From Candidatus Thioglobus sp. (lineage in GTDB: Bacteria > Pseudomonadota > Gammaproteobacteria > PS1 > Pseudothioglobaceae), in the NCBI GenBank assembly GCA_028345055.1, contig JAOMCO010000008.1, positions 1 to 63,702 on the forward strand: 63,702 bases of DNA, given 5' to 3'. Position numbers and translations under genes: made by a program. This document shows positions 3,583 to 12,396 of this stretch, one piece after another (within the stretch, counting starts at the first letter, position 1; every line of letters starts with the position of its first letter). The notes under the pieces were generated by a model. The model saw only the letters and a list, made by a program, of their open reading frames with translations, made no database searches and had not been told where the DNA came from.

Positions 3583-3612
3583 TTGAAAGATATATATCAA
3601 TTGATGTATACT
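3583..3612 (+). promoter_or_regulatory. Candidate sigma-70 promoter and operator of dctPQM
   Basis: A -35 box TTGAAA (3583-3588) and a -10 box TATACT (3607-3612) are separated by 18 bases. Two small palindromes sit in the spacer: GATATATATC (3589-3598) and ATCAATTGAT (3596-3605). A repressor bound there would block polymerase. The GntR regulator at 6963-7736 is the obvious candidate, but that link is inference. A strong ribosome site (AGGAG) precedes dctP. Confidence 0.5.
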
Positions 3613-3679
3613 GGTTAGTAGCTAAATTCATAATTTTATTGTGTATTTATCTATCAATGTTTAAAAATTAGGAGATTTT

Positions 3680-4774
3680 ATGTTTAAAAATAAAGTTGGT
3701 TTATTGGCTGCTGCATTAGTTGCGTTTAGTTCAAGCGCTATTGCTGATGGTCATATCCATTTAAAAGTACAATCTGTATTAAACTCTACTGGTAGTGAAG
3801 TTGGCTATGTTAGAGATTTTGCAGAAGACGTTGCAGCCCTTACTGATGGCAGAGTAACAATTGAAGTTCTTCCAGGAGGCTCTGTTGTTCCTAACTCTGA
3901 TCTTATTGATGCTGTTGACGCTGGTCTAATTGATGGCGGATTTGCATGGACTCACTACTGGTCTGGTAAGCACCCAGCTGCAATGCTGTTTGGCTCACCA
4001 ATCGCTGGTGCAGGACTTGGAATTGACAACATCGCATGGCTATCATGGTTCCATAGTGCTGGTGGTAAAGAGCTCTATGACCAGTTATGGGATGAGATGG
4101 ACTTGAACGTTGTTGGCCTAATGCTTCAGCCAGTTGGTCCAGAAGCGCTTGGTTGGTTTAAAGAGCCAATTAACAGTATGGACGACTTCCGTAAGCTTAG
4201 ATTCCGTGCTCCTCCAGGAATCCCAGGACAAACCTATAAGGATATTGGTGTCGCAGCTGTAGCAATGGGTGGTGGAGATATTCTACCAGCACTTGAGAAA
4301 GGCGTAATTGATGCAGCAGAATGGTGCTGCCCAGAGCCTGACAGAGACTTTGGTTTCCAAAAGGTTCTTAAGTATTACTACTTGCAAGGACTTCACCAAA
4401 ACGTTGTGAATGCCGACATGTATATCAACGGTGACAGATGGAATGAAATTTCTCCACGTGACCAACATGCTATTCATGTTGCTGCAAGAGCAGCTAGACT
4501 TGACTCTATGTCAAATCGTATCTATGCAAATGGTATTGCTATGGCAGACCTTTTAGAGCAAGGCGTTCAGCTAATGGATACTCCAGATGACTATTTCGTA
4601 GAGTTTATGGCTGCTGCAAATGCAACTCTTCAAAAGAATGCTGATGAGAATGCATTCTTTGCAGAGGTTTGGGCTTCACAGAGAGATTTCGCTGAGAAAG
4701 CGGTACCTTTCTGGTCAGGTGCTCAAGCATCTAACGCTAAGTTAGGTTTAGCTTTTGCTGCAACCCTGAAGTAA
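3680..4774 (+). CDS. dctP: TRAP transporter substrate-binding protein, DctP family
   Basis: This 364-residue periplasmic binding protein has a cleavable signal peptide of about 22 residues ending ...SSSAIA. The body matches the TakP-like branch of DctP proteins: QPVGPEALGWF, FRAPPGIPGQ, the GVIDAAEW segment and the YYYLQGLHQN region. These line the ligand site for carboxylate or sulfonate substrates. It is the first gene of dctP-dctQ-dctM. Facing it across dctM is an operon for DHPS oxidation and sulfolactate cleavage, so DHPS or sulfolactate is the likely ligand. Known DHPS clusters use a comparable TRAP system (HpsKLM). The family call is firm; the ligand is inferred. Confidence 0.9.
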   Translation: MFKNKVGLLAAALVAFSSSAIADGHIHLKVQSVLNSTGSEVGYVRDFAEDVAALTDGRVTIEVLPGGSVVPNSDLIDAVDAGLIDGGFAWTHYWSGKHPAAMLFGSPIAGAGLGIDNIAWLSWFHSAGGKELYDQLWDEMDLNVVGLMLQPVGPEALGWFKEPINSMDDFRKLRFRAPPGIPGQTYKDIGVAAVAMGGGDILPALEKGVIDAAEWCCPEPDRDFGFQKVLKYYYLQGLHQNVVNADMYINGDRWNEISPRDQHAIHVAARAARLDSMSNRIYANGIAMADLLEQGVQLMDTPDDYFVEFMAAANATLQKNADENAFFAEVWASQRDFAEKAVPFWSGAQASNAKLGLAFAATLK

Positions 4775-4800
4775 AGATCCATCGTAAGACTTGAAAAATA

Positions 4801-4837
4801 AGTTGCTGATAGTGAAAACTATTGGCAACTTTTTTTT
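4801..4837 (+). terminator. Intrinsic terminator after dctP
   Basis: The arms AGTTGC (4801-4806) and GCAACT (4825-4830), plus ATAGT (4809-4813) and ACTAT (4818-4822), form a stem interrupted only by a TG/TG internal loop and capped by GAAA. Seven T residues follow at 4831-4837. It lies 26 bases after the dctP stop and 140 bases before dctQ, so it should separate dctP expression from dctQM by partial termination. Confidence 0.85.
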
Positions 4838-4843
4838 ATCTTA

Positions 4844-9528: not shown

Positions 9529-10833
9529 TTACTCTAATACAGGAGCACCCAAATCAAAAGATTCTTCAGGAAAATATTTACTGAGTCTAACGTCGGATGC
9601 CCTGGCATGACCTTCCATTCCTTCCAATCTTGAAATTCTAGAAGATGCCTGCGCAACTTGGCGTGTAGATTCACGATCCATACGTTGCCAAGTTAAAACC
9701 TTTAAAAATTTATGCGCAGATAGCCCACCAGAATATCGGCCAGCTGCTTTTGTTGGGAGAATATGATTAGGTCCTGAGGCCTTATCACCAAAAGTAACTG
9801 TTGTTTCTTCACCTAAAAATAATGAGCCATAGCAGGTTAAGTTTTCAAGCCACCAGTCAAGGTCACTACACTGAACTTCTAGATGTTCAGCTGCATATTC
9901 GTCAGAAATTTTAACCACCTCATCACGAGAATCACAAAGAATAACTTCACCATAGTCTCTCCAAGCACAGTGGGCAGCATCTTGAGCAGTTGGTGGTAAT
10001 TTTTTAATATATTCTGGAATAAGATCCATAACTTTCTCAGCTAGTTCTTGTGAGGTAGTAAAAAGCCATCCAGGAGATTCATGCCCATGCTCCATTTGAC
10101 CCACCAAATCAATGGCTACAACATCTGGATCTGCATTTTCATCTGCAATGACAGCAACTTCAGATGGACCAGCAAAAACATCAATACCAACCTCACCAAA
10201 AAGAGTCCTTTTAGCTTCAGCTACAAATTTATTTCCTGGACCAACAATAATATCTGCCTTCTTTCCAGTAAATAGCCCATAAGCCATACTTGCTATTGCT
10301 TGAACACCCCCAAGAGTCATTACATGATCTGCACCTGCAGTCTTCATTGCATATAAAACGTAAGGGTGAATACTCTTTCCTTTATATGGTGTAGAGCATG
10401 AAATAATACATGGAACACCAGCAGCCTTAGCAGTTGCTATGCTCATATAAGCTGAAGCAATATGGGCATATCTGCCTGTTGGAACATAGCAGCCTGCTAC
10501 ATTAACTGGCAGTAATCTTTGGCCAGCCTCAACACCATTATTTTTGGTATGAAACTCCTCAATAGAATCACGTTGTGCTTTTGCAAAAGTGTATACCTGC
10601 TGACACGCAAAGTCGATATCATCCTTAACATCTTGAGGAACATTTGCAGTAATTTCTTCAATATCAGCAGCTGATAGAAGAATATCACCAGTCCAGCTAT
10701 CTAACTTTTCAGCATAATCTATGACAGCTTGCTCACCATCCTTATTAATGCTAGAGAGCATATCATGCACTACTTTTTGTGCTTCTAGCATATTTGATTC
10801 TGCCGTTTTATCGGCTTTTTTTAAATATTTCAT
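9529..10833 (-). CDS. hpsN: Sulfopropanediol 3-dehydrogenase HpsN (histidinol dehydrogenase family)
   Basis: This 434-residue protein is of the histidinol dehydrogenase fold. Typical segments are [49 protein letters not shown] and [12 protein letters not shown], which include zinc- and NAD-site residues. HpsN oxidises the terminal alcohol of DHPS through the aldehyde to sulfolactate. No his genes are nearby. Instead two other dehydrogenases and SuyAB flank it, which is the expected DHPS arrangement and argues against a biosynthetic HisD. The start is the ATG at 10833, 26 bases after the suyB stop. Confidence 0.88.
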
Positions 10834-10859
10834 AACAATTAATTATTTAGTAAATTTAT

Positions 10860-12029
10860 TTATGCGCTTTCATATAGGCGAGTTAATACAAACTCTTGAT
10901 GACCTAAAATTTCAGCAGCAGTCATTCTCCCATTAGAAGTATGTATCAAAGACTCTAGAAGCATGTCACCTGCTTGATCAAGATTGATGTCACGATTGAG
11001 TAATCCTGTAACATCAACATCAACATGTTCAGACATTGTTCTAACGGTCCTAGGGTTGGCACAAACTTTTATGACTGGCAAAATTGGATTACCAATAATA
11101 TTGCCTTGCCCAGTAGGGAACAAATGAGCGACATATCCAGATGCAGCACACAATGTAACCATTTCTGCAGCTGCTGAAGATGAATCCATAAACCATAAAC
11201 CATTGCTTGTAGGCATTTCAGCTTTATCTAGAACGCCATCAACCACACACTTTTTTCCAATCTTTTGAATGTTTCCAAGTGCCTTTTCTTCAATAGTAGT
11301 TAGACCTCCTTCAATATTTCCCTTGGTGGGTTGAGACTCTGAAAGATCATCTGTTTTAAAACGCTCTATCATATCTTGATAACGATTAAACATAAACATA
11401 AACTGATCAGCGACAGCATCATTGGCACATCTCTCCTTAACTAGATGTTCACCACCTGTAATTTCTGAAGTCTCACCAAATAGAAGTGTACTTTGTTTTT
11501 CATAAAGTTTATCAAATGCATTTCCAACTGTAGGGTTAGATCCAAAACCTGAAGTAGTATCTGACTCTCCACACTTCGTGGAAACCCATAACTCACCAAT
11601 ATCACACTCTTCTCTTTGAAGACCAGTTGCATAGTGAACCATATCATAAGCAGCTTTAGATGCATCAGCTATTGTTTGGGTATCACCTCTCTGTTCAATA
11701 GCAAAACCTTGAACTGGTTTACCAGTTGCGGCAATGCCATCAACTATTTTTTGAGTCCAGCCTGGCTCAATACCTATAACTACGACAGCAGCAACATTTG
11801 GGTTTGCACCAGTGCCAATCATTGTTCTGAAATGAAGATCTAAGTCTTCACCAAACTGTAGTCTTCCATATGGATGTGGAAGCGCAATTGTTCCCTTAAT
11901 ATTATTACTCACTGCTTCGCAAGCAGCATTTGAAATATCATCAACAGGAAGTATAACTACATAATTGCGAATCCCTACTCTATTGTTATCACGTCTGTAT
12001 CCGTAGATTTTTTGATTTAAATTTATCAT
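10860..12029 (-). CDS. suyB: Sulfolactate sulfo-lyase large subunit SuyB
   Basis: This 389-residue protein is of the altronate dehydratase (UxaA) superfamily. It carries [19 protein letters not shown] at the N-terminus, [21 protein letters not shown] in the middle (a conserved cysteine region) and [19 protein letters not shown] near the C-terminus. With SuyA it cleaves sulfolactate to pyruvate and sulfite. I set the start at the ATG at 12029 rather than the GTG at 12035: GAGG sits just upstream, and the stop and start overlap as TAATG with suyA. The alternative, a sugar-acid dehydratase, is less likely next to hpsN. Confidence 0.85.
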
Positions 12030-12310
12030 TACCACCTCTTCGTTTTAACGTTGTGAACATGAAGATGATCGCCAACAGCAATCTTTGAAATTGTCCTACC
12101 AATATCTACACCATATTTAATGACGGTATCATCTTTATTTAGATCTTTAATAGCAAGTTTATGGCCTATGGGAATATCTTGATTAATCTTTACATCGATT
12201 AAGGTATCCTGATCCATAATCCATCCTGAAACAGTATCATTTGCTTTAAGTCCTTCAACTGTTACAACACCAACAGAATCGTCTTCATCATGAACTATAA
12301 ATTGAATCAT
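12029..12310 (-). CDS. suyA: Sulfolactate sulfo-lyase small subunit SuyA
   Basis: This 93-residue SAF-domain protein corresponds to the N-terminal domain of altronate dehydratases, made here as a separate polypeptide as in known SuyAB enzymes. Visible features are [28 protein letters not shown] and [15 protein letters not shown], ending with [13 protein letters not shown]. It is the first gene of the minus-strand operon, with a strong ribosome site (AAGGAG) just before the ATG. Translational coupling to suyB by TAATG supports a 1:1 complex. Confidence 0.85.
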
Positions 12311-12378
12311 GCCTTCTCCTTGTACAAAATTAAAAAAACTGTAATTAAATTTATAGAATAAAATTTAATGAGGAGTAT

Positions 12379-12396
12379 ATTATATCATATATATGA
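12379..12396 (-). promoter_or_regulatory. suyA promoter -10 element with adjacent palindrome
   Basis: On the minus strand a perfect -10 TATAAT (12379-12384) is directly preceded by the 12-bp palindrome TCATATATATGA (12385-12396). The -10 is about 70 bases upstream of the suyA start. No strong -35 is visible, which fits an activated or regulated promoter. The same palindrome lies upstream of sat (50029-50040). The role as an operator is inferred. Confidence 0.5.

Follow-up and report, generated by a model that had tools for sequence, protein, structure and literature searches.

2,3-Dihydroxypropane-1-sulfonate (DHPS) is an abundant sulfur compound that is passed from algae to bacteria. Plasmid p2 of Cupriavidus pinatubonensis HN-2 carries hpsN, hpsO, hpsP, suyA, and suyB in one cluster, together with a LacI regulator and a major facilitator superfamily (MFS) carrier, and plasmids of Rhodobacteraceae SC52 and P. 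seriniphilus hold compact clusters of the type TRAP-hpsN-hpsO-hpsP-suyA-suyB, TRAP denoting a tripartite ATP-independent periplasmic transporter. A TRAP transporter for DHPS, HpsKLM, was verified with mutants in Ruegeria pomeroyi (PMC10130141), Roseobacters and SAR11 have been named as main marine DHPS degraders (PMC11131964; PMC8269247), and HpsN has already been reported in Gammaproteobacteria (PMC11382572). Here, we analyzed a stretch of 63,702 nucleotides from Candidatus Thioglobus sp. (JAOMCO010000008.1; hereafter, the window), one of 54 contigs (C53) in a 74%-complete assembly of 1.31 Mb. We propose that positions 3583 to 12396 are a DHPS utilization locus of mixotrophic/heterotrophic SUP05 bacteria (Pseudothioglobus type), made up of a catabolic core and DHPS uptake, and assign this reading a probability of roughly 0.78. 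The pathway itself is known; new would be the type of TRAP transporter, its neighbor from the GMC family of flavoproteins, and, as the newest part, a putative coupling to sulfite oxidation. Among the papers covered by a limited literature search, none described DHPS use in SUP05/Thioglobus.

The locus shares its five catabolic genes with the Cupriavidus cluster, but the gene order differs and the window has a TRAP transporter, a GntR regulator, and an IseJ-like GMC protein. The original prediction had credited Cupriavidus with a TRAP importer; in the C. pinatubonensis record, the neighbor is the MFS carrier instead. The Roseobacter/Paracoccus clusters resemble the window in their compact TRAP-linked composition. 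However, their HpsN is only 54 to 56% identical to that of the window, the TRAP transporter of P. seriniphilus is of the DHPS type represented by structure 24gc (554 bits), with that of SC52 67% identical to it, and the clusters additionally encode Ldh and a putative exporter of sulfate, whereas the SUP05 genome has sat-aprBA (an exporter was not searched for). In the IseJ-IseKLM system (R. pomeroyi SPO2356-2359), as in the window, a GMC flavoprotein adjoins a TRAP transporter. The window differs in that its TRAP transporter belongs to another subfamily than those of the Roseobacter clusters analyzed here, has no IclR regulator beside it, and sits with hps-suy. As in sulfur bacteria employing AprBA-Sat, the window encodes AprA, AprB, and Sat proteins scoring over their NCBIfam cutoffs; unlike in those bacteria, sat-aprBA shares promoter elements with an organosulfonate locus.

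Organization of the locus

The predicted compact pair of facing units with tight junctions was found as described. All nine open reading frames of the locus are open, and trapPQM on the plus strand converges on gntR-hpsP-hpsO-hpsN-suyB-suyA on the minus strand, the two units meeting tail to tail with 64 bases between trapM and gntR. suyA and suyB overlap in TAATG and hpsO and hpsP in ATGA, hpsN and hpsO are 4 bases apart, and short gaps separate suyB from hpsN (26 bases) and hpsP from gntR (19 bases). At one end, the span starts at the -35 hexamer in front of trapP; at the other, it stops where a palindrome upstream of suyA ends. A tenth gene, for the GMC-family flavoprotein, is located just outside this span and is divergent from trapP.

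1820-3424, minus strand: GMC-family flavoprotein, IseJ-like, candidate isethionate dehydrogenase (GMC domains)
3583-3612, plus strand: trapP promoter with element A, TTGAAA followed by ATATATATCAATTGATGTATACT, -10 TATACT (promoter scan)
3680-4774, plus strand: trapP, TRAP solute-binding protein (DctP)
4800-4831, plus strand: terminator-like hairpin after trapP (6 such sites in the region versus 4.9 expected)
4977-5585, plus strand: trapQ, TRAP small permease (DctQ)
5576-6898, plus strand: trapM, TRAP large permease (DctM)
6963-7736, minus strand: GntR/UTRA (HutC-type) regulator, candidate regulon repressor (GntR and UTRA domains)
7756-8766, minus strand: HpsP, predicted zinc MDR dehydrogenase for S-DHPS (best PDB match DsHpsP 8wwd)
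8763-9524, minus strand: HpsO, probable SDR dehydrogenase for R-DHPS (Ser145/Gln147/Tyr158/Lys162 pattern)
9529-10833, minus strand: HpsN, predicted DHPS 3-dehydrogenase of the HisD family (match to CpHpsN 8v35, motif, tree)
10860-12035, minus strand: SuyB, predicted (R)-sulfolactate sulfo-lyase large subunit, UxaA family, 391 amino acids (identity, tree)
12029-12310, minus strand: SuyA, predicted small subunit, UxaA type, 93 amino acids, without a Pfam match of its own (neighbor and identity)
12379-12396, minus strand: suyA promoter with element B (TCATATATATGA palindrome), -10 TATAAT (upstream alignment)

Between trapP and trapQ (4800 to 4900), the terminator-like hairpin is followed by a long near-perfect inverted repeat.

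Identity of the catabolic enzymes

HpsN of the window matched CpHpsN (8v35) with 687 bits versus 240 bits for the best HisD and is 69% identical to the Cupriavidus enzyme. The HpsN signature has been described as GRY(A/S)H with the sulfonate-binding His126 (PMC11382572); the window protein reads GRYAH and has this distinguishing His at the aligned position 126. Eleven of 12 checked positions are as in CpHpsN, the loop residue at position 121 being Thr for Ala, and by alignment the zinc-binding and catalytic residues Gln248, His251, Glu318, His319, Asp352, and His411 are kept, as is Lys353. In the tree, the biosynthetic HisD of the same genome (contig C11) pairs with E. coli HisD, far from HpsN, and a third HisD-family paralog (contig C34, with genes for an ABC transporter and an SDR next to it) lacks the His. 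Bit scores, motif, residues, and tree thus rule out that HpsN is a HisD.

HpsP scored 246 bits against DsHpsP (8wwd) versus 143 bits for the next PDB match and by alignment retains His59, Glu60, and Glu139 in its GHE and TEP residues. HpsO displays SLQ...Y...K from position 145, that is, the set Ser145, Gln147, Tyr158, and Lys162 of RpHpsO (PMC11131964) in the same numbering. This motif is not exclusive, because 6le3, named gluconate 5-dehydrogenase, carries the same residues, and overall HpsO is slightly closer to 6le3 (234 bits) than to RpHpsO (8wwf, 227 bits), a point against our assignment. HpsO is probably an R-DHPS dehydrogenase.

SuyB is 75% identical to the protein of the C. pinatubonensis hps cluster, with the next non-Suy match at 38.5%. 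A 100/100 branch splits 13 proteins taken as Suy (at least 60% identical to that of the window), among which SuyB falls, from four taken as non-Suy (E. coli UxaA, GarD, and two plasmid proteins below 40%). Identity and this branch rule out UxaA and GarD, and thereby a placement with the sugar-acid dehydratases. SuyA shows 49% identity to the C. pinatubonensis protein and 42 to 57% to others adjoining suyB. On these scores, identities, residues, and trees, the names that the original prediction had given to HpsN, HpsP, and SuyAB stood, and we regard the identity of the catabolic core, with its predicted activities, as highly probable.

Its notion of a complete pathway held for one enantiomer. 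The predicted gene set would take R-DHPS all the way to pyruvate and sulfite. The scheme published in 2024 (PMC11131964) for S-DHPS needs a sulfolactaldehyde dehydrogenase and sulfolactate dehydrogenases, which are not in the locus; elsewhere in the genome, no search for a sulfolactaldehyde dehydrogenase was made. An Ldh_2 protein on contig C23 of the same genome (L055, 9541 to 10548) found its best model in sulfolactate dehydrogenase, at 236 bits and below the cutoff of 500. Ldh_2 proteins 71 to 73% identical to it are encoded between suyB and hpsN in three related loci (L014, 2528 to 3547; L016, 8921 to 9937; L020).

In the plasmid records, HpsN is mostly annotated as histidinol dehydrogenase and SuyAB as UxaA-family hydrolase, and in one of them HpsP appears as galactitol-1-phosphate 5-dehydrogenase. 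Since automatic annotation misnames their genes, hps-suy clusters are easily missed.

Conservation and distribution

The arrangement is not due to chance, as it is conserved across 22 SUP05-type loci that were chosen by hpsN. Of these, 20 are distinct, L091 being a repeat of L015 and L092 of L019. All 22 have hpsN, 21 have suyA and suyB, 20 have gntR and trapM, and 16 have trapP and the GMC gene. As far as the contigs reach, gene order is kept in 19 of the 20 distinct records, and the missing genes are accounted for by contig ends; the exception in both respects is L017. In this single-cell genome (339 to 2846), hpsN stands without suyAB, hpsO, and hpsP, and its neighbors resemble the genes on both sides of the locus in the window (52% to 671-1765), a picture that would fit deletion of most of the locus.

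Eighteen named contigs carry an HpsN 86 to 96% identical to that of the window. They are mostly filed under Ca. Thioglobus, Ca. Pseudothioglobus, SUP05 cluster, or uncultured or unnamed Gammaproteobacteria, and one under Thiotrichales. L018, filed as Woeseiaceae, has a typical SUP05-type suy-hps operon (HpsN and SuyB 86 to 89%), probably due to a binning error. Of the 29 genomes from the genus, 19 have window-type HpsN, defined by at least 85% identity, as do both genomes of a second genus; it was detected in none of 52 genomes, many of them incomplete, that represent the family's nine remaining genera. Judging from L089 and L090, the whole locus appears to be present in the cultured strains PS1 (PMC4616169) and NP1 (PMC6424205), the latter of which has been grown with diatom lysate (PMC6424205).

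The TRAP transporter

The expectation of a TRAP importer of the kind known for DHPS failed. TrapP scored only 27.7 bits against the DHPS TRAP structure 24gc, versus the 554 bits reached by the protein of the P. seriniphilus TRAP-hps-suy cluster (L047), and identities to HpsKLM are 24 to 28%. TrapP is 25 to 28% identical to HpsK-type proteins and 22% identical to the Roseobacter ise-type protein beside an IseJ-like gene; TrapM is 24 to 30% identical to the large permeases of both types, with 30% to the ise type (L137/L138), which was assigned to isethionate by gene context only. HpsKLM and the Roseobacter ise type are both ruled out by these values as the identity of the transporter.

We surveyed 369 gammaproteobacterial genomes including that of the window. 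Twelve others, from seven families, encode the TRAP transporter (at least 65% identity). HpsN (E value of 1e-135 or better) is present in 11 of these 12 versus 3 of the 356 remaining genomes (G142, G169, G440; Fisher p 1e-17, uncorrected for kinship), and the twelfth, G433, has an HpsN fragment; G137 (42%) was counted among the rest. hpsN is also located by the TRAP genes in one named contig (L042). Because the transporter tracks HpsN across Gammaproteobacteria, it is linked to DHPS use by this co-occurrence, as a third sulfonate-linked type. That it carries DHPS is likely in our view, although several observations weigh against DHPS uptake by this locus. The transporter differs from HpsKLM at the subfamily level, and the best solved relative of TrapP is a lactate-type binding protein. 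hpsN lies within the fetched stretch around the TRAP genes in only 5 of the 12 genomes from outside the family (L121, L122, L124, L129, L130), although several of the 12 stretches stop at contig ends. An IseJ-like GMC neighbor and xsc, in the genome of the window and in all 12 TRAP genomes, would fit isethionate equally well. The enzyme activities and the transported substrate are predictions.

A second, different TRAP transporter is encoded between suyA and a thioesterase gene in L008 (4862 to 7867), L016 (3547 to 6553), and L020 (3432 to 6465); its binding protein in L016 matched 4pet with 442 bits.

Promoter elements shared with sat-aprBA

Aligning the regions upstream of suyA and trapP across loci, followed by a scan of the window, revealed two elements. 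The core of element A, ATATATAT-7 bases-TGTATACT, precedes trapP in 17 of 17 aligned sequences (16 distinct), and ATATATATNAATTNATGTATACT is exact in 15 of them (15 of the 16 distinct). Upstream of suyA, CATATATATGATATAATATA is exact in 19 of 21 sequences (17 of 19 distinct). Both elements are found again some 37 kb away from suyA, where they lie upstream of sat, the first gene of the unit sat-orf264-aprB-aprA.

45498-47333, minus strand: AprA, adenosine 5'-phosphosulfate (APS) reductase alpha subunit, presumably acting from sulfite to APS (TIGR02061, 998 bits, cutoff 642)
47333-47803, minus strand: AprB (TIGR02060, 193 bits, cutoff 136)
47826-48620, minus strand: 264-amino-acid protein between aprB and sat, weakly TcuB-like (42 bits only)
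48790-49995, minus strand: Sat, sulfate adenylyltransferase (NF003166, 507 bits, cutoff 387)
50029-50040, no strand assigned: element B upstream of sat, within the 18-base palindrome AACTCATATATATGAGTT (element scan)
50125-50147, minus strand: element A upstream of sat (element scan)

Element A occurs in 2 exact copies in the window, against an expectation of 0.01 when up to 3 changes are allowed; the 12-mer of element B has exactly 2 copies versus 0.48 expected with up to 1 change. Element A is found upstream of sat in five of five genomes, including that of the window, one copy having one change, and element B is exact at this site in two of the five. In 231,710 bases of related genomes having the locus, the elements are confined to trapP, suyA, and sat. 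The shared elements therefore suggest one regulon reaching from DHPS uptake to sulfate, and the simplest reading would make the GntR/HutC-type protein its putative repressor. The predicted dedicated regulator was present in 20 of the 22 loci, but "dedicated" may be too narrow, because the same elements stand upstream of sat-aprBA.

Other findings detract from this coupling. The exact element B 12-mer is missing from 6 of 21 suyA sequences, and before sat it is absent in NP1 (L191) and has one base changed in PS1 (L188) and L195. Eight of 100 shuffles gave at least 2 copies at up to 1 change, so element B alone is weak, and the 10-base core reached 3 copies in 1 of 100 shuffles. Elsewhere in the same genome, element B occurs with 1 change at three places, and inexact copies of element A are located on C23 just after the Ldh_2 gene (3 changes) and on C1 (4 changes). 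Part of element A is plain promoter, because it contains the -10 box, and GntR is only a candidate for the protein that binds the elements. Weighing both sides, we give a coupling of the DHPS locus to sat-aprBA an even chance.

The elements might instead be what strong constitutive promoters look like in this lineage, and not operators of one regulator. The good -35/-10 pair held by element A would agree with this, as would the AT-rich genome, in which element B alone is only moderately rare. However, a housekeeping promoter type should recur elsewhere in the genome, and no exact copy of either element was present in 333,743 bases sampled there. In a genus mate lacking window-type hpsN (G028), 1,203,805 of about 1.6 Mb contained neither element A at up to 3 changes nor an exact element B; since sat, aprA, and aprB were not found in these bases either, this control is merely negative and not decisive. 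Furthermore, the element B palindrome overlaps the -10 region of suyA and has an intact core in all but one of the 21 sequences. We consider a constitutive promoter type a possible explanation, though a somewhat doubtful one.

The genome was also predicted to be of the sulfur-oxidizer type, which AprBA and Sat bear out with their scores; the 74%-complete assembly yielded no DsrA over the cutoff (best 18 bits, cutoff 393). The 264-amino-acid protein is encoded beside sat-apr in four related genomes and could pass electrons for AprBA.

The GMC neighbor and isethionate

In the GMC tree, the window protein falls into a group (98/99) with GMC proteins of hps clusters and an xsc-linked one from Caballeronia. 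A P. aminovorans GMC protein whose gene adjoins xsc is placed in a neighboring group, and E. coli BetA lies outside the group, which weakens an identification as choline dehydrogenase. This grouping with xsc-linked GMC genes makes the protein a candidate IseJ-like enzyme. The genome has its own Xsc (1014 bits, cutoff 676), located on contig C6 in a likely taurine module (L054, 5496 to 11398) with a MocR-like regulator (recognized by eye), an aminotransferase, and an alanine dehydrogenase. Xsc scored over the cutoff in 38 of 51 genomes: 21 of 29 from the genus, both from the second genus, all 15 further Gammaproteobacteria that have the TRAP or GMC gene, and none of five complete genomes from other genera. 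With an IseJ-like GMC protein next to the transporter and Xsc encoded in the genome, isethionate is a serious candidate for a second substrate, and the importer may carry it as well as, or instead of, DHPS.

Taken further, the region might consist of two modules, hps-suy serving DHPS or sulfolactate, and an iseKLM-iseJ-like pair of TRAP transporter and GMC protein serving isethionate, which the transporter would import, the GMC protein would oxidize to sulfoacetaldehyde, and Xsc, encoded elsewhere in the genome, would cleave in that form. Besides the grouping of the GMC protein and the occurrence of xsc, the divergent TRAP-GMC layout matches that of Roseobacter clusters, R. pomeroyi iseMLK and iseJ being numbered in a row (PMC9870897). 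However, the TRAP transporter is only 22 to 30% identical to the Roseobacter ise type and tracks HpsN more tightly than it tracks the GMC gene: in G190, G295, and G306, TRAP and HpsN come without a GMC protein that reaches the cutoff, and G224 and G305 have GMC without TRAP or HpsN. In addition, Xsc over the cutoff is missing from four of the 19 genomes of the genus that encode window-type HpsN (G010, G012, G013, G021), among them the 91%-complete G012, judged by its contig to be the source of L007, which has the GMC gene. The 74%-complete genome yielded no DctP match besides TrapP; were this transporter to serve isethionate, DHPS would have to enter through a different importer. Two separate modules are therefore rather unlikely, though far from negligible, and we favor uptake of DHPS by the TRAP transporter. 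In another gammaproteobacterium (G440, contig C156, 1517 to 4690), an hpsN-like gene directly adjoins xsc.

Sulfolactate as the imported and main substrate, with the DHPS dehydrogenases as accessories, is improbable. In its favor, SuyAB heads the operon, and the sulfolactate-dehydrogenase-like Ldh_2 gene, below the cutoff, stands between suyB and hpsN in three loci, but hpsN accompanies the TRAP genes even where the stretch lacks suyAB (L042, L121, L124, L129, L130). That the locus is not for sulfonates and its HisD and sugar-acid dehydratase homologs act on a carbohydrate acid, as the mostly histidinol dehydrogenase and UxaA-family hydrolase database names and the NCBIfam hisD model, which passes its cutoff on HpsN, would have it, is refuted at the sequence level by the scores, residues, and trees of HpsN, HpsP, and SuyB and retains next to no credibility.

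Origin of the locus and related genes

In the HpsN tree, the window protein groups with Cupriavidus and Rhizobiales HpsN (99/100; with CpHpsN alone, 94/91), apart from the Gammaproteobacteria that share the TRAP and GMC genes, and SuyB is nearest to Cupriavidus/Caballeronia (85/92). The locus resembles a mosaic in which an hps-suy operon of beta/alpha type stands next to a TRAP-GMC unit of gamma type.

Two genomes of the genus without window-type hpsN, G028 (L087, 5861 to 11167) and G015 (L088, 1787 to 6066), encode a divergent HpsN-like protein (54 to 55%, GRYSH); an apparent premature stop in these genes proved to be where they truly end. In L087, according to NCBIfam models, it adjoins CuyA (536 bits, cutoff 450), the cysteate racemase CuyB (265 bits, cutoff 190), and a DegT aminotransferase; by eye, the L088 cluster looks alike. 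By analogy with HisD and histidinol, one idea is that this enzyme might oxidize cysteinolic acid, a sulfonate with an amino-alcohol structure, to cysteate. A DegT-type aminotransferase gene also flanks the locus in the window (13840 to 15039). It lies near hps-suy in 10 of the 22 SUP05-type loci and was not found in L015 and L019, where the available sequence reaches over 8 kb into this flank. Its product is 69% identical to one from a CuyA/CuyB cluster and may act on a C3 sulfonate.

Implications for SUP05 bacteria

Together, these predictions outline how DHPS might be used. The TRAP transporter would import DHPS, possibly also isethionate, and HpsN would oxidize R-DHPS by four electrons to R-sulfolactate, with HpsO and HpsP bringing in the other enantiomer or giving sulfolactaldehyde. 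SuyAB would split R-sulfolactate into pyruvate, serving as carbon source, and sulfite, which AprBA and Sat, presumably working in this direction, would oxidize to sulfate with formation of ATP. Uptake, catabolism, and sulfite oxidation would be turned on via the shared elements once a metabolite of the pathway relieves repression by the GntR/HutC-type protein. It is tempting to extend this to a wider proposal, which we hold tentatively and with less than even confidence: AprBA-Sat would belong to an organosulfonate regulon controlled by one GntR repressor at trapP, suyA, and sat, the importer would represent a third, undescribed family of hydroxysulfonate TRAP transporters, and DHPS, probably along with isethionate and taurine, would supply both carbon and inorganic energy.

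The conserved SUP05 locus adds a widespread group to the DHPS users, and its presence in two cultured strains makes the question testable. The TRAP type offers a new marker for sulfonate uptake in Gammaproteobacteria. If sulfite oxidation is part of the same regulon, the use of organic and inorganic sulfur would be one program in these cells. This would bear on how "mixotrophic" SUP05 bacteria live in oxic water without sulfide, and an organosulfonate regulon would explain why SUP05 cells lacking Dsr would keep apr and sat.

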